64,000 bases of DNA from Isoetes taiwanensis (taxonomy: Eukaryota; Streptophyta; Lycopodiopsida; Isoetales; Isoetaceae): assembly GCA_021234155.1 (NCBI GenBank), contig JAJEKV010000163.1, positions 585,215 through 649,214 of the forward strand, read 5' to 3'. Of the stretch, positions 2,739 through 41,219 are shown in pieces; within the stretch, counting starts at the first letter, position 1, and each line of letters opens with the position of its first letter. A program made the translations under genes and the position numbers. The notes beneath the pieces were generated by a model that was not told where the DNA came from, did not search any database, and saw nothing but the letters and a program-made list of their open reading frames with translations.

Positions 2739-3836
2739 ATGAGCACAAAGTGGTTGGATATGGCTGTTGTAGACACATGACAAATTGGCTGTTGTTGTAG
2801 ACACGTGACAAATAAAAACACTCTATTACCGAATGAACCTCCAAATGAAGAAGTCTATGCTGGATGTAATGTACCTCCTATAAAGAAAATAGTAACCATA
2901 AGTTTTGAGCCTGAACCTCAGAGTGTGCATCCACATTTCAAACATGCAATGCAATTGTACTTGGAACATATAAATAAACAGATACTTACCTTCACATTGG
3001 GATAATCCCCTGGCTGGAACTCCATGACCTCAAAACCTCTGGTTAGAACTCCATGACCTCAAACACATGACAGAAATTTGACAAATAAGAATTCAATACG
3101 AAGGGCAATAGTATATCAATTTTATGGGACAATGGCAGCAAAGACAAATATCCGAAGCCTAGCATGAAAGCATGCTTCAATTGTATGCTGCTCGAAATTA
3201 TGTGATATATATAGTGTTGTGAATCTGAATAATCCAAGAAAACTCATGTGAATTTATGGATTATGCCTACTCCAAACATACACCTGCATGCAAACATCTA
3301 ATAGGTGTTGATGTCTAATAGGTGTTGTTTCTTGAAAGTCCTTGCAAAACATCTCATTGTATAGGATACTGCATGTGCAAAGGATTTGAAGTGAAATAGA
3401 AAACTGGGGCTTCATGCTCGAGCAAGAACGCAGCTGCAAAGACCAAGAATAGCGGCAAAGATCCCCTTAAAATTATTTGCTAAAAGATCTAAAATGTACT
3501 CAATCTGGCTTAACGACCCAGCAAGAAACCCAGCTGCAAAGGCCATAAATAGTTGCAAATATCTCCTTGAAATGTTCTAATAAACATTTGAAAAGCAAAG
3601 GTAGAAGTCGAAAATGATGGGGCTCCCATGGTTAAAAGGGTTAAACCGTGGCTTCATGGCTCAGTTCAAAATTTACACACCCTGGTATGCTTCGCGGCGA
3701 ACTCCTCCTTAACCTTAATTCCTTCTTGCCCCAGGAAGGATAATAGAGCAGAGATAAAGCTAAAAAATCCAAGGTTTACCATACCTTAGCTGAGCTTGGA
3801 ATAGACACCATCTCATTGTCGTATACAACATAGGCA
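2739..3836. other. Intergenic, no feature recognised
   Basis: No reading frame with family resemblance is visible. The only structure is short local duplications such as CTAATAGGTGTTG repeated at 3299-3328 and two related AACCCAGCTGCAAAG-type blocks at about 3425-3550. Confidence 0.6.
3832..3836. other. Target-site duplication, left copy (AGGCA)
   Basis: AGGCA immediately precedes TGTTGG and is repeated exactly at 4374-4378 after the terminal CA. Five bp is the usual LTR-retrotransposon duplication length. Confidence 0.85.
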
Positions 3837-4005
3837 TGTTGGAGTATGTGTAATGGGCACACATGAAAAATGACTCAGTGGAAGAGTGCCGAAAGCCCAT
3901 CAATGGGCGGTAGCTTCGATGGTAGAGAGTACTTTGCTTGCAAGCAAGAGGTCCAGGTTCAATCCCGGCCTGTCCACCCAATCATAGAAAGCTCATTTCC
4001 CAACA
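3837..4005 (+). repeat. TRIM 5' LTR (169 bp)
   Basis: The repeat runs from TGTTGGAGTATG to TTTCCCAACA. It contains a perfect short hairpin (GCCCAT-CA-ATGGGC, 3895-3908) overlapping the start of the tRNA-like sequence. It lacks a few bases compared with the 3' LTR. Confidence 0.92.
3905..3976 (+). tRNA. tRNA-Ala(TGC)-like sequence in 5' LTR, degenerate
   Basis: It has the same layout as the copy at 4271-4344, with a TGC anticodon in a CTTGCAA loop and a B-box-like GGTTCAATCCC. It carries more damage: one acceptor base is missing, there are two mismatches in the anticodon stem, and the T stem is altered. It is a component of the retrotransposon LTR, not a free-standing tRNA gene. Confidence 0.6.
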
Positions 4006-4018
4006 TGGTATCAGAGCC
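4006..4018 (+). promoter_or_regulatory. Primer-binding site (initiator tRNA-Met) of TRIM
   Basis: TGGTATCAGAGCC begins immediately after the LTR terminal CA. It matches the complement of the 3' end of plant initiator tRNA-Met, the commonest primer of plant LTR retrotransposons. Confidence 0.92.
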
Positions 4019-4192
4019 ATGGTCCCACGTAAAGGGTGCTTAACCGCATCGGGATAGTCCCCAGTTGTGTAGGGGTGAGAATGAGCAAAGCTTTGCTGAT
4101 GGAAAGCCCAACTCCTCAAGAATGGTGGAGTTGCCCCGAGGAGGGGAGCATGTGGATTGTGGTGAAGGCTGGAATGGATTGGTGTGCCCATT

Positions 4193-4200
4193 AAGGGGAA
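4193..4200 (+). promoter_or_regulatory. Polypurine tract of TRIM
   Basis: AAGGGGAA lies directly before the 3' LTR, where plus-strand synthesis is primed. Confidence 0.8.
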
Positions 4201-4373
4201 TGTTGGAGTATGTGTAATGGGCACACATGAAAAAAATGACTTCAGTGGAAGAGTGCCAAAGCCCATCAATGGGCCGGTAGCTTTCGATGGTAGAGTACTT
4301 GGCTTGCAAGCAAGAGGTCCTGGGTTCGATCCCCAGCCTGTCCACCCAATCATAGAAAGCTCATTTCCCAACA
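4201..4373 (+). repeat. TRIM 3' LTR (173 bp)
   Basis: This is the near-identical partner of 3837-4005. Its tRNA-like part is better preserved than in the 5' LTR: the T arm reads CTGGG-TTCGATC-CCCAG. Confidence 0.92.
4271..4344 (+). tRNA. tRNA-Ala(TGC)-like sequence in 3' LTR
   Basis: These 74 bases can be folded as a tRNA. Acceptor GGGCCGG pairs with CCTGTCC with one mismatch, a G3:U70 wobble and A73. The D arm is GCTT/GAGT around TCGATGGTA, the anticodon loop is CTTGCAA (TGC), and the T arm is CTGGG/CCCAG around TTCGATC. G3:U70, A73 and TGC are the known identity features of tRNA-Ala. GGTTCGATCCC is a near-consensus polymerase III B box, and TAGCTTTCGATGG is a plausible A box. One G-G mismatch in the anticodon stem argues against it being a working tRNA. 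Lying inside an LTR, it probably acts, if at all, as an internal promoter. Confidence 0.7.
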
Positions 4374-4378
4374 AGGCA
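4374..4378. other. Target-site duplication, right copy (AGGCA)
   Basis: AGGCA follows the 3' LTR end AACA and matches 3832-3836. It fixes the right boundary of the TRIM. Confidence 0.85.
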
Positions 4379-5560
4379 TGGTCTGCATTTGGTCGAGCAT
4401 CCTCAATATTCTACGATGGAAATTTCTTAGATTGGAAATCATAATAGCCCGGAGTAAAGACATCTCTGAGGCTACAAGACACAGCAGGCTGGAATAGTAT
4501 GGAGATAGGGGAAGCACTTAAACCAATGATAGATGCCATAGTTTCTGTAGCCTACGAATCCCTCTTCGTTTAAAAAGATTCATATAATTTTTGGGTATTT
4601 GATGCATGCGAACTTGCCATTCATGCTTCCCAAACCTGCAGATGATTGCAACCGGGCCGTGCTCATTCCTGTTCAACAACAGGATTCTCGCATTCAACAG
4701 ACTTTGATCTAGCGCATTGCCATTGAACCCTAAAAATTACGCAAACTGTCCGATCTCGGCCTGAAAGATCTGAGCCCTTTGATCTAGGGCTGGAAACTGA
4801 GTTTTCATAAAGGTCTCAAAGGATTTTAGGGAACTTACAGGCATCGCTGAATAAAGGGAAAAAAGTATGATCGGGAGTTCAATGGTAGAAGGATTTCGGC
4901 ATAGCAGCTTGCAAAAGCTACAAATAGTAGATTCTCAGGTCCATTTCCTTCACATATTGCATAGCTGGAGAGGGCATCAATCCGACATATCTGCATGAGA
5001 ATAGATATTAGAATGGATACCAAAGAAAGCAGGGGAATATGTCTTATCTTCCATCGCCTTAAGCTGCAATTCAGTCTTGGGCGATCACATACAATACATG
5101 AATTCTGATATGCTCGATTTTTCTTTCAACTTTGGATCTGTGCATTGGCTCGAAGAAGTTGATGCTTGAGTAACTCGGAATCAAAATAAGAGCTCGAAGC
5201 TTGGGCACAATCCGGATCCTGTATAGCGGCCATATTAGAAGGATTTCATCCGAGATCTTAATGCGAAATTTTTTAATTAATACCTTCGTGGCATCATCTA
5301 CATCATTGGGTAGATCAATCCGGACCGTTTAAATTAGGGCGTGATCCATTACATAATATAGGATGAGTTTTGGATTAGTTTAGCTAAATGCTAGAAAGTA
5401 TAAGAGGAAAAATGTATATAGTTTAGCTAAATCACAACAAGTTTTGGGATTAGTTTCAAGCAAGTTTAGCTAAAGACATTCTGGCTAATCAAAAACGTGT
5501 AATTAGTAATTTATTCCCTGTTGTTGACCGACCAGCAGCTATATTCGATTGTGGAATTTG
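4379..5560. other. Intergenic, no gene recognised
   Basis: Mixed-composition sequence without a reading frame of recognisable family. A short repeated phrase (GTTTAGCTAAAT / AGTTTAGCTAAA with TTTTGGATTAGTTT) occurs at about 5370-5475. Confidence 0.55.
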
Positions 5561-16100: not shown

Positions 16101-18352
16101 GTGCACTACATGATTATATGAGCCATCTGAAGCCCTTGGTGATACCGATGTTTGGCCACGAGGATGACCAACCAAATATTCATTCTGTTGCATCCTTGTG
16201 TTCTGGTCTCTTGGTGAAAAATAGATGCACGATCCATGACTAATGTCACAAACAGAATCATTATGGCACCCTGCATGTTCAAATGGAGAAGAAATTGGCC
16301 TGTCCGTAGCTTCCCTTAATGCTTGCATTTGAGACTGGCAATCATTATATTCCTTTGTGGGTTCCATTATCATATCATTACCCCCAGAAACTAAATTTTT
16401 AGTTCCACTTCCGTGCACGGTCTTGTATGAAATAGGCATTTCTGAAAATGCGGTAAACGGTAAACAAAATCAGCCTGTAAATAAAATGTTGTACAAACAT
16501 GCTAAGAGAGAAGTACCTTGCACCACTTCTACATTACATGCATTGGGTAGCTCCCTATGCCGTGATAAAGCATTCTCTGTTCGGAAATAGCTGCTCGTTG
16601 GCTGCATTGGCATCATGCAGTGGCTACAATCATGAAACGCCCTACCATGGTGTATCTCACTCCTTGGTCTAGCACTCATCAATGGATTTGTTGCAAAGAC
16701 CTGCTGCTGCTGCATTACAGGACACGCGCCATGATGTGAAGTCTCTGATAAAACGTGATATGGTGTTGTGGATGGACCTGTTTGGCATGCATGAGATGCT
16801 ATAGCAGCGTGATGCAGATCACAGCTTACTGATGGGACTTCTGACAATACCTTCTGGTGCTGTATGAATCCGCCCACATGATTTCCTTGATAAGTTGATA
16901 ATTGGCATTGTCCCTCAACTGCCCACAATACTCTATTGGATAGGGCAGGCGGACTCTGTGCCAAAGAAGGATGAAGCTGTGGTTCAATGCATGATACATC
17001 CAAACAGCTTGAACCCAATCCGATCCCATGTACTGGCCTTGCTCTTATAGCTCCGCATTCTCTGCCTTGTCCTTGTAAAGGAACCATGTTAAACAGCTCC
17101 TCAGAAGTCGTAGGATCATTGGTACCTGGGAATGAAGAGTTTGCACAACCATATTGACAACACAAAGCTCTATGTGCAAGAGAATCATCCTTCTGATAGA
17201 CACTTTCATCACTAAAAGACTGGTCATGCCATGGGAGAAGATCTGCAGCAATGTGATCCTGCGTATTAGGGCCTAACAAGTATGGGACTGGCTTCAAATT
17301 ATGCAGATCACGTCCCCAGTCTTCAGGAAAAACATATTTGGGATATGATACTTGGGACATGATACCACTTGAAAGGAGGGAGCTTGGCGGAAGTACGTTT
17401 AACCCCACTTTGAGTTCTGCAGTTGCATTTCGAGTATGTTTTGTAAAAACCACATCAGGAATTTCATTAACAGCATCAACGAATTGTTGTTCAGAGTGTT
17501 TGGAACTCTCAAGGGTGTCATAAAATTCTTTTGGTTCATGTTCACTTGCAGCTGCAAAAAACAAGAATATACGAAGCCTTGCAGACCCATCTTTACTAAC
17601 TTCTAGTCTATCATACTCTTCCATCATGTTCTCAACATCTTCGTCTGTTGTCACAGATACTAATGAATCAAGGTCTTCCTCTGGCAGCTGATACTTCACA
17701 ATAAGAGGTTGCTCACAAAGATCTAGCATTTTGTTCCTGAGATCCATATATTTAATGTTCCGATTTACATTTATAATCCTGGTATCACCTCCTACATACC
17801 TGAGTTTTCCATCAGATGGCCTAGGCAAAATCTTACCCCCAAAACTGCACATAAGCCTAATTTTACAACATGAAATTGCTTCAAATGACTCCTGTGTATA
17901 ACCAGACACCACTGAGCTAGTTTCTAGCGCATGGCTTGTGATGCTACCTGCACAAAAAGGTCAATCAAAGGTACAGTTCACATAACCAAATAATAACTTA
18001 AAATACCTTCGTCCGAAGCGTTTCCTGAAGCTTGGTATAAGACCGTGCTTGCGTTCGAGGGAGCTTCTTGTACGATATTGAAGCCTAGGTCATTATCAAC
18101 CGGGCATAACACAGAGCTGACCAATTGTATATCTTCTTTTGGCTGAATGGAATCTAGATCCTGAGCAGGCAATAACATGCTTGTTGTTTCTAAATGAACA
18201 TCCTCTCTTGGTGAATACAAAATCAAAGGGTTCAATGGGCTATCTAAATATGAGCTTCCAATTAGTGCAACAGGATCAGGACGTGAAATGTAAGGCCAAG
18301 TTACCGGAATATTACTTGCCACCTCGGGATCAGCACGAGCAATTTGATCCAT
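13117..18352 (-). CDS. PB1-domain Raf-like protein kinase (plant group B4 type), 10 exons
   Basis: Predicted CDS, complement of 13117-13301, 13429-13516, 14113-14232, 14301-14448, 14640-14803, 14878-15030, 15104-15193, 15270-16441, 16517-17947, 18007-18352. All introns are GT-AG, most 59-191 bases, one 596; phases agree and give 1298 residues. Residues 144-245 form a PB1 domain ([20 protein letters not shown], acidic loop [16 protein letters not shown]). About 245-1010 is probably disordered. The kinase domain is about 1020-1285: Gly loop [17 protein letters not shown] lysine 1047, HFDLK catalytic loop (D1149), ADLGLSK (D1171) and [20 protein letters not shown]. Related plant Raf-like MAPKKKs act in cytosolic stress and osmotic signalling. 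HFDLK and DLG are normal for the group. The activation segment is not: residues 1187-1196 are out of frame with the family consensus. MDQIAR was chosen as start; an in-frame extension to 18481 is open. Confidence 0.9.
14147..14180 (-). other. Double compensating frameshift in kinase activation segment
   Basis: The family motif here is [15 protein letters not shown]. The gene reads [15 protein letters not shown]. Shifting the frame by one base inside the segment recovers RGTLPWMAP exactly, so one base appears inserted near 14174-14178 and one lost near 14146-14150. As written, the P+1 loop and APE motif are lost while the rest of the kinase stays in frame. Confidence 0.8.
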
Positions 18353-25813: not shown

Positions 25814-26398
25814 CTATGCTCTTACCATGTGAGTTTTTGGCTCGTAAAACCTCGATCCCCTCCATCTTTTCGTGCCATTAGCTATGATCACCCCATTGCC
25901 GTGCGGACTTTCCGACAATAGCTCACCCCTAAGCGTTGACCTCGGCCTTATCTTACAGTATCCCTCTTGCCATTCCTGTGTCCTCGCCGTGTACACTATC
26001 TGACCATCTTTCTCATCCGCATGCGTAATTTGTGCTTGTTCCTGTCTGGTTCTGGCATTTAGATCTCCTACTATAATCATTGGTCCTTGTCCCTTCCATT
26101 TCGTTATGTTTTCTCCCAGTTCCAACAATTCCCGACTTATCATTTTGTTTGGCGGGTAATATGCAATTATCAGAACTACCTCTTGTTTGTTTTTCAATTG
26201 AATATTCAAAACCATATATCTTTTATTGATATCTGAATGTAACATACATGCATTGTGAGCCGCACTATTCTTTATATAACAAGCCAGACCTGCACTCCCT
26301 CTCCCTTTCTTGAAATCCCTGTCTTTCCAACATGTAAACAGCTGGTACCCTTCCTCCTCTGGTAGCCTTTTAGTGTTATGCTCCCATGTCTCTGCCAA
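25814..26398 (-). pseudogene. LINE A apurinic-type endonuclease domain
   Basis: About 194 codons open. It contains GYQLFTCWKDRDFKKGRGSA, LACYIKNS, VVLIIAYYPPNK and MIIVGDLNARTRQ (variant of GDFNAR). The C-terminal SDH is not within this frame. Confidence 0.75.
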
Positions 26399-26815
26399 AC
26401 ATATTATGTCACAGCCGTGGGCACCTTCCAGTCTTTCTCCATCATCCCATGGGTACAGTGCAGTTCAGTACCATAATGTCGGCGTCTTTTTCCCGAGGTT
26501 GCTCCGCCGGGGTCTCCATGTTTTCCGTGCCATTCCCCATTCTCCTTGGCCTCCCCACAGGTTTTCATTGTCGGGGTTGGCCCTTGAGAATACACTTGAT
26601 TTGTTCGCTCTTCGTTTCCCCCGTTTCCGCTTCCTCCTATTGCTCTGTTCTGGCTCCCATCTATCGTGATTGCTCTTAGTGCCTCTCTCTGCGTTCTGTT
26701 CTCCTGCATCTGTTGCATGGGTTTCACGAGATGTGAATTTTCCTTCTCTGCTCCCGTTGGTTTTGCTACCCCCCCAACCCTTCCGTACGCTCCTGCGGTT
26801 GAGTCCCTTGCTCTC

Positions 26816-31122: not shown

Positions 31123-31584
31123 TCATGTCATTCTCTCACCTAAACCCTTCCTGGGAACCGTATCAAATGCTTTCGCAAAATCAACGAAAGCAACGTATAG
31201 AGCTTTATTCGGTTCCTTCGCCCGTTCTATCAAGACACGGAGCGTTAGTGCATGATCTAAAGTATTGTGCCCTCTCATAAAACTAGCTTGGTACTGAGAA
31301 CGCTTGCCCTGTTCTTCAGCCCATATGCTCAATTTACTCTTCAGCAGCGTACCCAAAAGCTTGGTGAAAGTGCTCCCAATTAAAACGGTTCTATAGTTTT
31401 GTGCCAATTTCTTGTCTCCTGTTTTATAAATTGGATGTACTCGATTCACCCTCCAACTATTTGGAAGCCCATATCTGAGGCTTTGATTTAACAAACGTGT
31501 CAGAATGGTAAGGGTCTGATGGCCTCCCCATTTAAACAATTCAATGCACAAGCCATCTACATCGTGTGCCTTATTGTTATCCAT
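31123..31584 (-). pseudogene. LINE B reverse transcriptase, N-terminal half
   Basis: 153 codons with KAHDVDGLCIELFKWGG, WRVNRVHPIYKTGDKK and the palm motif YVAFVDFAKAFDTVPRK. The palm motif FVDFAKAFDTVPR differs from plant L1 (DF.KAYD.V.W). The next RT block (GCPLSPTLFG) continues at 31068-30862 after a frameshift. Confidence 0.8.
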
Positions 31585-32130
31585 TTCCTCGATAATGTCT
31601 CCCCGACCGCCGCCTCAAGAAATATATTTATATTGGTGGCGAAAATTGCATGTTTTTCTGTCTCTTCAATAGCATAGATACTTTTTAACTAAACTTAGGA
31701 GCTCATCAAGATCCAGATTAGGGCGTAGATTGGACTTCCTTGTAATGCTCTCAAAAGGTCTTTGGAGATTCCATAAGTTTGATCTGTTAATTTTAGTTGC
31801 CGGGTTCGAAAAAGGCTCGCTTTTGTCTTACCAATGCTTTATACCACTTTTGGCTTCCTCGGTGTGATGCGGTTTTGCGTGCGACTTTGCTCGTCTTCTG
31901 CCGACAATCAATATCCCACCATGCATTGATAGGTCTACCAAGTGGGTGTTTCTGGTGTAGCCTAACGTGCGCTCTCTCGCGACGGAGTAACCGCTTTGGG
32001 AGGTGCAGAAAGCATCTTGCCTCGAAGTTCCCCTTTCCATGTCATGGAGGACATCAACCTCTCCACTTGGCTTTCATATATTCCGTTAAGTGCATATTGA
32101 ACCTTACACCTCGGTTGGAACGCGCAGGTG

Positions 32131-32695: not shown

Positions 32696-33481
32696 CTAGA
32701 TCGCTAAGAAGTGCTATGTATCCCTGGAGAAAGATGAGGGGTGCGCCATGCAATAATTGGTTTGACACAGAGTGTAAAAGGAAGAGACAGAGTTTAAAGC
32801 GACTAAGGGGTTCAAAAAGAAGTCGGGTCGGACGGGAATACATGAAATTGGTGAAAACTAAGAAAAAACAAATTTGTATGATAAACATTTGCAAATAATG
32901 GATGAGCCGCTAAAGAGCCAAAAAATTTCGGAGCGAATCAAGCCAAAACTAAAGCACTTTGCGTGTGTTAGATAGGGATGAGCTACTAAAATACATACAC
33001 AGTTTGTATCATATTCCAGATGTAGTAGATAATACGTTGGTGCAGTATGTAACGGGGGGTGAGTGGGAGTTCACGCCAGAAGATATTCAGTTTGGCTTAC
33101 AATCATTGGCGAATGGTAAGGCTGCAGAACCACGCCGGGATTGGTAAGCGAGATGTTTAAATGGGCAGGTTCAAAAAACTCGGGGAGGTTCTTTGGAAAT
33201 TAATGAATGCGGTTCAGAGATCGGTTCCCACGCAGTTGGCAGGTAAACAAGGTTATCCCCTTACATAAAACAGGAGACGAGAAGGATCCAAATAATTATA
33301 GAATGATAATGGTTAGTAACCACTGCGAAACTCTTTGCCACCATGGTAAATAGAAAGATTAATGGGTGGGCTGGAGGTAAATAATGTCGGGGCAATCAGG
33401 CAGGTGGGCTTTTAGGCCTAAGAAGTCAACAATGGACCATTTGATTACCTTCGCGGTGATGATTGATTTACAGGAACCGGA
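32696..33481 (+). mobile_element. LINE C, downstream part (linker and RT start)
   Basis: Plus-strand LINE sequence in several frames: NNWFDTECKRKRQSLKRL (post-endonuclease linker), EWEFTPEDIQFGLQSLANGK, MFKWAG, WQVNKVIPLHKTGDEK-like blocks and WAFRPKKSTMDHLITFAVMI (RT). Strand and domain order make it the natural continuation of 19980-21679. It is cut off at 33482 by an inverted LTR. Confidence 0.6.
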
Positions 33482-34246
33482 TGAAATGCTCCTAAGGCAT
33501 TTAACACTTGAAAAATCAAATAGAGAAGTAATTGGAACTAAAAATAATATATATAACTTTCTTTTATTATGAGGTAACAATGGTCCTTTTTTGACACTCA
33601 AAATCGAGTTTCCAACTACTCATAGTCTTTAGAGAACCTATGCCTTGACATCTCGGCTATTATCACGCGGCTGGCCGCGAAAAACTCACTTAGCTACTAA
33701 CTCGCATGCCGTAAAGGAAGAAAGAAGGTGGGGTTAGTCCTAGGAAGGACTAAGTGGGTAAACCATTGCCTTAACCGAGGTGAATCGTTAGTCATACGCA
33801 CAATAGGCACACAAATGTTAGTCACGATAGAACGCCTTCTTTAATAACTTGTCGCGGATTGTGGATGATCAATCCCTCATTCGGTTCACACGTATATCGT
33901 TTCGGACATGACTATATCGTCCACATACCAATCACCGGATATGCCGCGTTTTTTTACCTTCCAGACCCTTCGGGCAACATAAAGGGGGGTCCTTTCATCT
34001 GAGTTCATTATTTAATGTTTTATTATATTTGCAAACACAAATACAAAGTATCAATAACAAAATAAAACATATGTAAGTTTTTCGACAAACTACTAAACAA
34101 AAGAAAAGATAACTCGAAACCAACAGAAACTCCAAAGATCCGGCTCCGGCTACCCACCAAAGGATCTTCCACGTGTAGTCTTATTTGACCCCTGTCCACC
34201 TTTTCTGCGATATCTCTCTAACCGTAAGGAGGTATGAGAGGTGCCA
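33482..34246 (-). repeat. Inverted solo LTR (765 bp)
   Basis: The reverse complement of this segment matches the LTRs at 35188, 36757, 38325 and 39901 end to end. On the plus strand it reads TG...CA (TGAAATGCTCC to GAGGTGCCA). Flanking 5-mers (CCGGA, CCTCA) do not match, so it probably arose by rearrangement. It ends LINE C in mid-RT. Confidence 0.85.
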
Positions 34247-34378
34247 CCTCATAATAAAAGTCCATTTTGAGTGTCAAGGACCATTGTTACCTCATAATAA
34301 AAGAAAGTTATATATTATTTTACTTCCATTTACTTCTCTGTTTGATTTTCAAGTATTAAACGCCTTAGGAGCGTTCCA
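34247..34378 (+). repeat. Array LTR 1, 5'-truncated
   Basis: Only the 3' 120-130 bases of the LTR are present. A stray CCTCATAATAAAAG lies at the join to the inverted LTR. PBS TGGTATCAGAGCC starts at 34381. Confidence 0.8.
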
Positions 34379-35187
34379 TTTGGTATCAGAGCCTAGGTTT
34401 CCGATTATTAACCATAGTTGGTTATTGTGACAAAGACAATGAGAAGTCATCAATATTGAAATTATGGGAAACCAAGAAGGAAGTAACTTCTTGGGGAAGT
34501 TATGCAGCCGAGACATCTAGCCGTGGCCAACAACGGGAAAAGGTCAAAATTTAGTTTTCACATTCTAAACCTAGTACCTAACTGTGAAGTCCCCAAACAT
34601 TAGTAGTCATCCAAATTAATCTTAAATGTTGTAGTGACAAGTGTAGTCAACCTCGAAGGGTGTATGGAGTGGAACATAGTTTTAGATATGTCTTGTACCT
34701 TGGATATCTTGGTTCATCTACAAAAATTAATGACTTTGCAAGGAATTTACAGATTATCCCCATGAGGACATGGGTAAATTTTTAGTATGAGAGAAAATGT
34801 AACACACCTAAGGGATTGAAGGATAAGTAAATAATTTTTATTCTTAACCTCAGATCATGAATATTGAAAAGAATTGCAACGGTTGGGAAACAAGTTAAAT
34901 ACGGATGTCTATACTAAGGTACGGTAGGTATCTGACGAAAACAATGGTAATATCTGAACTAAAATAGTGAAGCTATGATTAGAGAAGATAAACTAGATAA
35001 GAATTTGTAAGAATAGAAAGATATTTTCTATTATTGGAAAGGAGAGGATATTGCTATAATTTTAGAAAAGGCAGATAGTATTAAAAAATGGTAAACTTTA
35101 AAACATGATAACTCGGTGACCGATTATTTAAATGGAGCAATCTTAAGCATTCTGCAAAGCCCTCGGAGTCTAGTTTCAGAATTGGGG

Positions 35188-35950
35188 TGGCACCTCTCAT
35201 AAATCCTTACGGTTAGAGAGATATCTTGAGAAAAGGTGGACATGGATCAAATAAGACTACGGTGGAAGATCCTTTGGTGGGTAGCCGGAGCCGGATCTTT
35301 GGAGTTTCTGTTGGTTTGGAGTTATCTTTTCTTTTGTTTAGTAGTTTGTCGAAAAACTTACATGATTTATTTTGTTATTGATTCTTTGTGTTTGTGTTTG
35401 CAAATATAATAAAACATAAAATAATGAACACATATGAAAGGACCACGCCCCTTTGTCGTTCTTAGAAGGGCTAGGCGGTAAAGCAACGTGCATATCAGGT
35501 GATTGGTATGTGGATATAGTCATGTCGAAAGGAGCGATATCGTGTGAACCCGGGTGAGGGATTGATCATCCCTGAATCACAGTAAGTTATAAGAAGACGT
35601 TCTATGCGTGACTAACATTTGTGTGACTATTGTTTGTATGACTAACGATTCACCTCAGGTTAAGGTAATGGTTTACCCACTTAGTCCTTCCTAGGACTAA
35701 CCCCACCTTCTCTTCTTCCTTCTTACATGAGTTAGTAGCTAAGTGAGTTTTCTTGCTTCAGCTAAGCGTGGGATAATAGCCCCGAGATGTCAAGGCATAG
35801 GTTCTCTAAAGACTATGAGTAGTTGGAGCTTCGGATTTTAAGTGTCAAGGACCATTGTTACCTCATAATAAAAAGAAAGTTATATATTATTTTAGTTCCA
35901 TTTACTTCTCTGTTTGATTTTCAATTATTAAACGCCTTAGGAGCGTTCCA
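35188..35950 (+). repeat. Array LTR 2 (763 bp)
   Basis: TGGCACCTCTC to GCGTTCCA. Preceded by AATTGGGG, followed by TT and the PBS at 35953. Confidence 0.9.
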
Positions 35951-35952
35951 TT

Positions 35953-35965
35953 TGGTATCAGAGCC
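35953..35965 (+). promoter_or_regulatory. Primer-binding site, array element (one of five)
   Basis: TGGTATCAGAGCC, initiator tRNA-Met type, two bases after the LTR end. The same site occurs at 34381, 37520, 39097 and 40639. Confidence 0.9.
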
Positions 35966-36756
35966 TAGGTTTCCGATTATTAACCATAGTTGGTTATTGT
36001 GACAAAGACAATGAGAAGTCATCAATATTGAAATTATGGGAAACCAGGAAGGAAGAAACTTCTTGGGGAAGTTATGCAGCCGAGACATCTAGCCGTGGCC
36101 AGCAACGAGAAAAGGTCAAAATTTAGTTTTCACATTCTAAACCTAGTACCTAACTGTGAAGTCCCCAAACATTAGTAGTCATCCAAAATAATCTTAAATG
36201 TTGTAGTGGCAAGTGTAGTCAACCTCGAAGGTGTATGGAGTGGAACATAGTTTTAGATATGTCTTGTACCTTGGATATCTTGGTTCATCTACATAAATTA
36301 ATGACTTTGCAAGGAATTTACAGATTATCCCCATGAGGACATGGGTAAATTTTTAGTATGAGAGAAAATGTAACACACCTAAGGGGTTGAAGGATAAGTA
36401 AATAATTTTTATTCTTAACCTCAGATCAGGAATATTTAAAAGAATTGCAACGGTTGGGAAACAAGTTAAATACGGGTGTCTATACTAAGGTACGGTAGGT
36501 ATCTGAGGAAAACAAAGGTAATATCTGAACTAAAATAGTGAAGCTATGATTAGAGGAGATAAACTAGATAAGAATCTATAGAATAGAAAGATATTTTCTA
36601 TTATTGGAAAGAGAGGATATTGCTCTAATTTTAGAAAAGGCAGATAGTATTAAAAAAGGGCAAAATTTAAAATACGATAACTCGGCGAGCGATTATCAAA
36701 ATGGAGCAATCTTAAGCATTCTGGAAAGCCCTCGGAGTCTAGTTTCAGAATTAGGG

Positions 36757-37517
36757 TGGCACGTCTCATACCTCCTTACGGTTAGAGAGATATCACAGAA
36801 AAGGTGGACAGGGGTCAAATAAGACTACACGTGGAAGATCCTTTGGTGGGTAGCCGGAGCCGGATCTTTGGAGTTTCTGTTGGTTTGGAGTTATCTTTTC
36901 TTTTGTTTAATAGTTTATCGAAAAACTTACATGTTTTATTTTGTTATTGATTCTTTGTATTTGTGTTTGTAAATATAGTAAAACATTAAATAATGAACCT
37001 GTATGAAAGGACCCGCCCTTTGTCGCGTTCTTAGAAAGAGGGGCGGTAAAGCAACGTGCATATCAGGTGATTGGTATGTGGACGTATAGTCATGTCCGGA
37101 ACGATATACGTGTGAACCCGGGTGAGGGATTGATCATCCCTGAATCACAGTAAGTTATAAGAAGACGTTCTATGCGTGACTAACATTTGTGTGCCTATTG
37201 TCTGTATGACTAACGATTCGCCTCTCGAGTTAAGGTAATGGTTTACCCACTTAGTCCTTCCTAGGACTAACCCCACCTTTCTCTTCTTCCTTCTTACGCA
37301 TGAGTTAGTAGCTAAGTGAGTTTTTCTTGTGAGCGTGGGATAATAGCCTTAGAGATGTCAAGGCATAGGTTCTCTAAAGACTATGAGTAGTTGGAAACTC
37401 GGATTTTGAGTGTCAAGGACCATTGTTACCTCATAATAAAAGAAAGTTATATATTATTTTAGTTCCATTTACTTCTCTGTTTGATTTTCAAGTATTAAAC
37501 GCCTTAGGAGCGTTCCA
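36757..37517 (+). repeat. Array LTR 3 (761 bp)
   Basis: TGGCACGTCTC to GCGTTCCA. Preceded by AATTAGGG, followed by TT and the PBS at 37520. Confidence 0.9.
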
Positions 37518-38324
37518 TTTGGTATCAGAGCCTAGGTTTCCGATTATTAACCATAGTTGGTTATTGTGACAAAGACAATGAGAAGTCATCAATATTGAAA
37601 TTATGGGAAACCAAGAAGGAAGAAACTTCTTGGGGAAGTTATGCAGCCGAGACATCTAGCCGTGGCCAGCAACGAGAAAAGGTCAAAATTTAGTTTTCAC
37701 ATTCTAAACCTAGTACCTAACTGTGAAGTCCCCAAACATTAGTAGTCATCCAAAATAATCTTAAATGTTGTAGTGGCAAGTGTAGTCAACCTCGAAGGTG
37801 TATGGAGTGGAACATAGTTTTAGATATGTCTTGTACCTTGGATATCTTGGTTCATCTACAAAAATTAATGACTTTGCAAGGAATTTACAGATTATCCCCA
37901 TGAGGACATGGGTAAATTTTTAGTATGAGAGAAAATATAACACACCTAAGGGGTTGAAGGATAAGTAAATAATTTTTATTCTTAACCTCAGATCATGAAT
38001 ATTTAAAAGAATTGCAACGGTTGGGAAACAAGTTAAATACGGATGTCTATACTAAGGTACGGTAGGTATCTGACGAAAACAATGGTAATATCTGAACTAA
38101 AATAGTGAAGCTATGATTAGAGAAGATAAACTAGATAAGAATTTGTAAGAATAGAAAGATATTTTCTATTATTGGAAAGGAGAGGATATTGCTCTAATTT
38201 TAGAAAAGGCAGATAGTATTAAAAAATGGCAAACTTTAAAACATGATAACTCGGTGAGCGATTATCTAAATGGAGCGATCTTAAGCATTCTGCAAAGCCC
38301 TCGGAGTCTAGTTTCAGAATTGGG

Positions 38325-39094
38325 TGGCACCTCTCATAAATCCTTACGGTTAGAGAGATATCGCAGAAAAGGTGGACATGGATCAAATAAGACTACAGGT
38401 GGAAGATCCTTTGGTGGGTAGCCGGAGCCGGATCTTTGGAGTTTCTGTTGGTTTGGAGTTATCTTTTCTTTTGTTTAGTAGTTTGTCGAAAAACTTACAT
38501 GTTTTATTTTGTTATTGATTCTTTGTGTTTGTGTTTGCAAATATAATAAAACATAAAATAATGAACCTGTATGAAAGGACACGCCCCTTTGTCATTGCCG
38601 AAGGGCTGGGCGGTAAAGCAACGTGCATATCAGGTGATTGGTATGTGGACGTACAGTCATATCCGGAACGATATACGTGTGAACCCGGGTGAGGGATTGA
38701 TCATCCCTGAATCACAGTAAGTTATAAGAAGATGTTCTATGCGTGACTAACATTTGTGTGACTATTGTTTGTATGACTAACGATTCGCCTCAGGTTAAGG
38801 TAATGGTTTACCCACTTAGTCCTTCCTAGGACTAACCCCACCTTTCTCTTCTTCCTTCTTACAGACAGAGTTAGTAGCTAAGTGAGTTCAAGGTTTTACA
38901 ATAAAAAGAGCGTGGGATAATAGCCAGAGATGTCAAGGCATAGGTTCTCTAAAGACTATGAGTAGTTGGAAACTTCGGATTTTTGAGTGTCAAGGACCAT
39001 TGTTACCTCATAATAAAAGAAAGTTATATATTATTTTAGTTCCATTTACTTCTCTGTTTGATTTTCAAGTATTAAACGCCTTAGGAGCGTTCCA
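38325..39094 (+). repeat. Array LTR 4 (770 bp)
   Basis: TGGCACCTCTC to GCGTTCCA. Preceded by AATTGGG, followed by TT and the PBS at 39097. Confidence 0.9.
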
Positions 39095-39900
39095 TTTGGT
39101 ATCAGAGCCTAGGTTTCCGATTATTAACCATAGTTGGTTATTGTGACAAAGACAATGAGAAGTCATCAATATTGAAATTATGGGAAACCAAGAAGGAAGA
39201 AACTTCTTGGGGAAGTTATCGCAAAAGAGACATCTAGCCAGTCAAAAAGAACGAGAAAAGGTCAAAATTTAGTTTTCACATTCTAAACCTAGTACCTAAC
39301 TGTGAAGTCCCCAAACATTAGTAGTCATCCAAAATAATCTTAAATGTTGTAGTGGCAAGTGTAGTCAACCTCGAAGGGTGTATGGAGTGGAACATAGTTT
39401 TAGATATGTCTTGTACCTTGGATATCTTGGTTCATCTACAGAAATTAATGACTTTGCAAGGAATTTACAGATTATCCCCATGAGGACATGGGTAAATTTT
39501 TAGTATGAGAGAAAATGTAACACACCTAAGGGGTTGAAGGATAAGTAAATAATTTTTATTCTTAACCTCAGATCATGAATATTTAAAAGAATTGCAACAG
39601 TTGGGAAACAAGTTAAATACGGGATACTAAGTTACGGTAGGTATCTGAGGAAAACAATGGTAATATCTGAACTAAAATAGTGAAGCTATGATTAGAGAAG
39701 ATAAACTAGATAAGAATTTGTAAGAATAGAAAGATATTTTCTATTATTGGAAAGGAGAGGATATTGCTCTAATTTTAGAAAAGGCAGATAGTATTAAAAA
39801 ATGGCAAACTTTAAAACATGATAACTCGGTGAGCGATTATCAAAATGGAGCGATCTTAAGCATTCTGGAAAGCCCTCGGAGTCTAGTTTCAGAATTGGGA

Positions 39901-40636
39901 TGGCACCTCTCATAAATCCTTACGGTTAGAGAGATATCGCAAAAAAGGTGGACACGGATCAAATAAGACTACACGTGGAAGATCCTTTGGTGGGTAGCCG
40001 GAGCTGGATCTTTGGAGTTTCTGTTGGTTTGGAGTTATCTTTTCTCTTACATGTTTTATTTTGTTATTGATTCTTTGTGTTTGTGTTTGCAAATATAATA
40101 AAACATTAAATAATGAACCTGTATGAAAGGACCCGCCCCTTTGTCGTTGCCGAAGGGCTGGGCGGTAAAGCAACGTGCATATCAGGTGATTGGTATGTGG
40201 ACGTATAGTCATGTCCGGAACGATATACGTGTGAACCCGGGTGAGGGATTGATCATCCCTGAATCACAGTAAGTTATAAGAAGACGTTCTATACGTGACT
40301 AACATTTGTGTACCTATTGTCTGTATGACTAACGATTCGCCTCAGGTTAAGGTAATGGTTTACCCACTTAGTCCTTCCTAGGACTAACCCCACCTTTCTC
40401 TTCTTCCTTCTTACAGACAGAGTTAGTAGCTAAGTGAGTTTTGCGCAGCGCGAAGCGTGGGATAATAGCCGAGATGTCAAGGCATAGGTTCTCTAAAGAC
40501 TATGAGTAGTTGGAAACTCGGATTTTGAGTGTCAAGGACCATTGTTACCTCATAATAAAAGAAAGTTATATATTATTTTAGTTCCATTTACTTCTCTGTT
40601 TGATTTTCAAGTATTAAACGCCTTAGGAGCGTTCCA
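39901..40636 (+). repeat. Array LTR 5 (736 bp)
   Basis: TGGCACCTCTC to GCGTTCCA. Compared with the other LTRs it lacks about 20 bases after GTTATCTTTTCT near 40046. The PBS is at 40639. Confidence 0.9.
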
Positions 40637-41219
40637 TTTGGTATCAGAGCCTAGGTTTCCGATTATTAACCATAGTTGGTTATTGTGACAAAGACAATGA
40701 GAAGTCATCAATATTGAAATTATGGGAAACCAAGAAGGAAGAAACTTCTTGGGGAAGTTATGCAGCTGAGACATCTAGCCGTGGCCAGCAACGAGAAAAG
40801 GTCAAAATTTAGTTTTCACATTCTAAACCTAGTACCTAACTGTGAAGTCCCCAAACATTAGTAGTCATCCAAAATAATCTTAAATGTTGTAGTGGCAAGT
40901 GTAGTCAACCTCGAAGGTGTATGGAGTGGAACATAGTTTTAGATATGTCTTGTACCTTGGATATCTTGGTTCATCTACAAAAATTAATGACTTTGCTGAT
41001 ACAATGTAGGACTTGAAAATGGCATACCAGAATTTGAAACCACTAAATAGATGTGTCAATAAGTAGTAGCTACTTAGCACAAGCACAGGAATCGTATAGT
41101 GAATAGCGCGGGCGCACCATTTGATACAATGTAGGGCTTGCAAATAAGCACAATTTCATTAAAATGGGAAAATAGCAGGAAAACTGGACTAGATTTGCAA
41201 ATCATACATTAGACATACA

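Follow-up and report, generated by a model that had tools for sequence, protein, structure and literature searches.

In a 64-kb stretch of the Isoetes taiwanensis genome, analysed at its full length and referred to here as the window, we identified a 537-bp terminal-repeat retrotransposon in miniature (TRIM), located at 3837-4373, whose long terminal repeats (LTRs) carry sequence derived from a tRNA-Ala. The element is an old copy of a genuine, tRNA-bearing and recently active TRIM family. The family appears to be a new one of the Helenus type, from a second lycophyte, and is matched to Helenus by description, not by sequence. In the explanation that we regard as probable, the family consists of Helenus-type TRIMs in which the tRNA module would serve as an RNA polymerase III (Pol III) promoter, reverse transcription would be primed by initiator-Met tRNA and the proteins would be supplied by Copia elements. 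The original prediction, made from the window alone, had considered the design distinct from those already known; in this it was mistaken, since a 2024 publication had already described tRNA-like LTRs in TRIMs, naming these elements Helenus (PMC10886601).

The anatomy of the window element is that of a complete TRIM, as the original prediction had proposed, and all of its parts lie on the forward strand. Reading of the sequence gave a target site duplication (TSD), AGGCA, on both sides (3832-3836 and 4374-4378), and alignment of the LTRs delimited a 5' LTR of 169 bp (TGTTGG...CCCAACA, 3837-4005) and a 3' LTR of 173 bp (4201-4373), both with TG...CA ends. Directly 3' of the 5' LTR is a primer binding site (PBS), TGGTATCAGAGCC (4006-4018), complementary to the 3' end of what we take to be the plant initiator-Met tRNA sequence. 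A polypurine tract (PPT), AAGGGGAA, also read from the sequence, adjoins the 3' LTR at 4193-4200. The junction between the two falls in the loop of a hairpin formed by a 12-bp inverted repeat, GTGTGCCCATTA / TAATGGGCACAC (4182-4226; arms at 4182-4193 and 4215-4226). Between the LTRs, the internal region measures 195 bp (4006-4200) and contains no frame of at least 120 amino acids on the forward strand; a stop-to-stop frame of 142 amino acids on the reverse strand (3982-4410) spans it.

The tRNA-like sequence is best preserved in the 3' LTR, where a full cloverleaf at 4271-4344 matches the tRNA family RF00005 at 46.8 bits (E 7.8e-07) and is called as Ala(tgc) by ARAGORN. This was the sole Rfam match at gathering level within the window, and likewise the only tRNA that ARAGORN found in it. 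The box A region reads TAGCTTTCGATGG (4278-4290), the anticodon TGC occupies 4305-4307 in both our reading and the ARAGORN call, and box B reads GGTTCGATCCC (4323-4333), identical to that of the commonest tRNA of the family. G3:U70 and A73, which are identity features of tRNA-Ala, are also readable. In the 5' LTR, the corresponding sequence (3905-3976) has decayed, scoring 23.9 bits (E 0.013) against a gathering score of 29, and its box B reads GGTTCAATCCC. Thus, the tRNA-like part with anticodon, identity features and B box that had been predicted for each LTR holds for the 3' LTR, but not for the 5' LTR. The two LTRs differ by 14 substitutions in 166 aligned columns, the fifth highest value among 39 pairs, and the window element is therefore among the older copies.

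Copies of the element were searched for in 1,658,258,908 bases of the genome (1110 sequences) using a 547-bp query, retaining the best 40 of 357 candidates, a set that leans toward complete and similar copies. Among the 45 matches obtained are at least 40 near-complete copies, including that of the window, with 86-100% identity, and the 39 other copies were taken with their flanks for analysis of TSDs, LTRs and tRNAs. Copies flanked by TSDs and retaining the tRNA part, which the original prediction had named as confirmation, are present: an exact 5-bp TSD was found in 27 of the 39, and one with at most one mismatch in 29, whereas 2000 shuffles of the right flanks gave a mean of 0.79 exact TSDs and a maximum of 5. 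Among the copies with exact TSDs, 24 of 27 are 536-557 bp long and the other three, which are arrayed, reach 678-988 bp. The length of family LTRs ranges from 169 to 177 bp, and that of the internal region is about 193 bp. In most of the other copies (33 of 39), the element begins 8 bp farther out, with TGTTGGAATGTTGGAG (at most two mismatches); the window copy belongs to the short-start minority, as does L024, likewise with an exact TSD. Pattern searches across the 40 copies recovered the exact LTR-PBS junction in 30, the PPT plus LTR start in 33 and both arms of the inverted repeat in 29. Tandem units of LTR plus internal region occur at five loci (L014, L020, L029, L037 and L041), and solo LTRs with perfect TSDs were found at three (L081, GCATC; L086, CCCTC; and L090, ATAAG, the last identified by eye and with the short start). 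Ten of 39 LTR pairs, the window pair being among the 39, are identical and the median LTR difference is 2.4%, from which we conclude that the family moved recently.

The tRNA module is a constant part of the family. RF00005 gave 77 matches distributed over all 39 other loci, with 62.3 bits as the commonest score (36 matches) and 31.9 as the minimum, so that every copy scores in at least one LTR; neither relatives devoid of the tRNA part nor a failure of the covariance model, the two outcomes that the original prediction had named as fatal to it, were encountered. ARAGORN made 66 calls in 37 of the 39 loci, all Ala(tgc), with L044 and L046 lacking a call, and 31 of 55 tRNA segments extracted by motif consist of one identical 82-nt stretch. 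The module is about 72 nt long, with 29 nt between the tRNA and the LTR end. In its commonest form it carries box A TAGCTCAGTGG and box B GGTTCGATCCC, anticodon TGC, G3:U70, A73 and a full T arm, together with the mismatches C5-U68 and G31-G39. A 67-nt core of this tRNA occurs exactly 66 times in the genome (its reversed control, 0), and all 30 of the 66 occurrences that were inspected lie within family LTRs, in some cases as the LTR pair of a single element.

As a cross-check, a query was made from the 100 bases at the start of the internal region, and the best 40 of 222 candidates included 15 places outside both the 40-copy and the exact-core lists. The six of highest identity among these 15 were examined, a selection that leans toward damaged tRNAs. 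Family LTR sequence was present in all six; ARAGORN called a tRNA in four (three Ala and one Val, through an anticodon change), and in the other two the tRNA had been partly lost by deletion or truncation. The chance insertion of a tRNA gene or of a short interspersed nuclear element (SINE) into one ordinary TRIM copy, in favour of which nothing speaks beyond the single window copy, has practically no chance of being correct and is ruled out by the family copies: the tRNA match recurs in 39 of 39 of them, the inspected cores fall without exception within family LTRs, and the six loci recovered through the internal region have family LTRs with the tRNA either called or cut.

The general features of the family agree with those of Helenus, defined by Kojima in 2024 as TRIMs whose LTRs contain sequence derived from a tRNA and reported from fungi, animals and one plant (PMC10886601). 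Both are short TRIMs with two LTRs of this kind, a PBS and a PPT between them and 5-bp TSDs (exact in the window copy and 27 of the 39 others), and the 537 bp of the window copy are within the 311-1263 bp given for Helenus, for which 5-bp TSDs are reported in plants and fungi (PMC10886601). Selaginella moellendorffii is the only plant listed, and its Helenus-1_SMo, with a 5-bp TSD, has an LTR of 120 bp and an internal region of 85 bp (PMC10886601), in contrast to 169-177 bp and about 193 bp in the Isoetes family, for which Isoetes is a new host beside S. moellendorffii. Unlike in most fungal Helenus elements, the PBS matches the 3' end of a tRNA, and the module is set apart by its closeness to a canonical tRNA-Ala in which anticodon and identity features agree. 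Tandem arrays have been reported for LTR-11_DR, and a Copia helper has been inferred for fungal Helenus (PMC10886601).

Other elements with partly similar designs were also compared. The term TRIMp3 was coined to embrace Helenus, Ajax and Cassandra (PMC10886601). Cassandra is likewise a plant TRIM with the promoter of a small-RNA gene in its LTRs, but this is derived from 5S rRNA instead of tRNA; no 5S rRNA family was found among the six Rfam matches up to E 10 in the window element, and identity with Cassandra is thereby ruled out. Ajax shares the general TRIMp3 design and the 5-bp TSD, but it is 5S-derived and was described from two nemertean worms (PMC10886601). The tRNA-derived SINEs (SINE2) have in common with the Isoetes family a short, non-coding sequence and a presumed Pol III promoter derived from a tRNA, whereas the LTRs, PBS, PPT and 5-bp TSD of the latter denote LTR-type replication.

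In the literature on tRNA-bearing TRIMs, Helenus, TRIMp3 and Isoetes TRIMs, including passages of PMC12859917 and PMC10541799 and covering few subscription papers or bioRxiv preprints, no earlier report of this family was found. On the evidence seen, Isoetes is apparently the second plant genus, and the second lycophyte genus, for Helenus. For a design with one plant listed in 2024 (PMC10886601), the family provides a further plant example, one that is clear and recently active. Within TRIMp3, the use of Pol III has been validated for Cassandra alone, and the question is left open for LTRs of the tRNA type (PMC10886601); with its 10 identical LTR pairs and 66 identical cores, the Isoetes family is a usable system for addressing it. 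Caution is also advisable with tRNA gene counts in such genomes, as these include LTR copies.

The commonest module was compared with host tRNAs, represented by 132 ARAGORN calls in which overlapping loci are counted repeatedly and few isotypes are included. The best scores were obtained with Ala AGC (score 35, 56 of 72 positions identical) and Ala TGC (34, 54), followed by Ile (28, 55) and Ala CGC (28, 55). Separate host tRNA-Ala genes are represented by 156 matches to the canonical core, many of them in arrays among the first 100 places listed. Dense groups of host tRNA genes, with Ala, Ile, Arg, Thr and Ser among the calls, were observed on C66, C232, C926, C1101 and C1079.

These comparisons bear on whether the family disseminates functional tRNA-Ala(UGC) genes, such that the LTR tRNA would be charged and used in translation. 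The anticodon TGC fits the identity features G3:U70 and A73, there are 66 identical cores, and the score of 62.3 bits is inside the 43.7-72.6 range of the best 63 genome tRNA matches (from 99,846 first-look candidates of the host RNA-family search), some of which are themselves family LTRs. Nevertheless, we consider this very improbable given the mismatches C5-U68 and G31-G39 in the commonest sequence, its identity to host tRNA-Ala at just 54-56 of 72 positions, the lack of a run of four T residues (T4) behind the LTR tRNA and a host already provided with the 156 matches to the canonical core.

As to the origin of the module, the insertion of a SINE into an ancestral LTR, proposed by Kojima for Helenus (PMC10886601), is compatible with our preferred explanation, and we retain it as a serious but somewhat doubtful possibility. 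A SINE body would hardly fit into the 29 nt from the tRNA to the LTR end, and the 30 exact cores inspected (of 66) all lie within family LTRs, although this count covers exact cores and diverged SINEs were not searched for. The same 30 of 66 places yielded no free tRNA gene or SINE as a source of the exact core. A direct origin from a tRNA gene or a retropseudogene is equally open.

Judging from its sequence, the tRNA-Ala(TGC)-like module, with its boxes A and B, would act as an internal Pol III promoter. Transcription would begin in the 5' LTR, a short distance ahead of the tRNA part, and continue through the element, initiator-Met tRNA would prime reverse transcription at the PBS, and the proteins of autonomous Copia elements would copy and integrate the TRIM, generating the 5-bp TSDs. 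Transcription by Pol III from the LTR module is likely, and the presence of both boxes in the commonest tRNA argues for it. Alternatively, the family might be transcribed by RNA polymerase II (Pol II), as ordinary TRIMs are, and the tRNA-like part might act in the RNA, either as a fold that is cut by RNase P or tRNase Z, thereby setting the RNA ends, or as a signal for packaging or RNA movement. A cloverleaf score that reflects the tRNA in its entirety and not just the two boxes (62.3 bits in 36 of 77 matches) would suit this alternative, as would the absence of a T4 run 3' of the tRNA in 81 LTR pieces. We nonetheless think it unlikely: a tRNA fold is expected from descent anyway, TATA[AT]A and AATAAA, the only two Pol II motifs sought, occur in 0 of the 81 LTR pieces, and the analogous Cassandra is described with a Pol III promoter in PMC10853983.

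Several observations weigh against the module acting as a Pol III promoter or are neutral in this respect. A T4 run downstream of the tRNA is absent from all 81 LTR pieces, so that Pol III RNA would pass through the element, as needed, without meeting a T-run terminator in the 3' LTR; termination by Pol III inside the 3' LTR thus lacks an explanation. Absence of T4 is, moreover, weak as evidence in favour of Pol III. The sense strand is free of T4 in 39 of 40 elements, compared with a maximum of 29 of 40 over 50 shuffles of the whole family, but the copies are related and shuffles of a single element (L010) are T4-free in 66% of cases. Host tRNAs, a weak control that comes mostly from arrays, have T4 within 30 nt in 18 of 84 distinct loci. 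Nor did selection on the tRNA part, sought as raised conservation, reach significance. Variation at non-CpG sites was 0.027 in the tRNA part vs 0.044 in the rest of the LTR (p=0.35), and shared alleles numbered 10 in the 72 tRNA columns vs 14 in 97 (p=1.0). The density of rare alleles is higher in the tRNA part (1.29 vs 0.87 per column), within which box A varies most (0.064), possibly through alignment noise at indels. CAA has a role in plant tRNA genes, and CATCAA[AT]GGG adjoins the tRNA in 71 of 81 LTR pieces; this motif was discarded as evidence for Pol III given that a CAA lies within 20 nt upstream in just 26 of 84 host tRNA loci.

A variant in which the fold is used in addition to the promoter was also considered. 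An ancient lycophyte lineage of tRNA-type TRIMs would keep the whole tRNA-Ala module, and tRNA processing enzymes would cut the read-through Pol III RNA, setting the R ends in place of a T-run terminator. We regard it as speculative and rather improbable.

The other component of the Pol III-driven, Helenus-type explanation is the Copia helper. Copia genes are abundant in the host, where RVT_2 matches (the best 150 of 13,950 candidates) score 269-294 bits, with open frames of up to 1480 amino acids. In four of the six loci recovered with the internal-region query (L119, L120, L121 and L123), the sequence preceding the PBS differs from the family LTR, and the remaining two lack a family 3' LTR. 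At L120, the LTR of a Copia family is joined to the TRIM at the PBS. Several copies of this Copia LTR are paired about 3.8 kb apart, and L125, a copy taken as a sample, shows matches to GAG-pre-integrase, integrase and RVT_2 and has a PBS starting with the same 12 nt as that of the TRIM. At L121, a Copia reverse transcriptase frame (RVT_2, E 1.4e-11) runs into the TRIM at TGGTAT, and at L027 the TRIM 3' LTR is joined to an LTR of the Copia family of L120. These junctions, at three loci and in two of them at the PBS, hint at a Copia helper. The three loci are possibly template-switch products between co-packaged RNAs, and later rearrangement is also a possible source of the joints. Two results count against the Copia link: a TRIM LTR was predicted upstream of the Copia part of L121, but 4 kb of sequence did not contain it, and the TRIM LTR and internal region show no similarity beyond the 12 nt of the PBS to L125, the one Copia copy compared. 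Separately, an LTR of the Copia family of L120 begins 5 bp 3' of the TRIM at L044, and the sequences lying upstream at L119 and L123 resemble LTR ends by eye.

Elsewhere in the window, a long tandem repeat extends over 34264-40996, with shifts of about 1.57 kb and about 95% identity, and is accompanied by an inverted partial copy at 33481-34248. A reverse-strand frame at 16470-17960 contains a PB1 domain (E 1.7e-20) and is probably part of a plant gene. Reverse transcriptase fragments are present at 17-442 and 31123-31614, the latter just under the Pfam cut-off, and an endonuclease/exonuclease/phosphatase fragment at 25814-26464; all three are probably remains of non-LTR retrotransposons.
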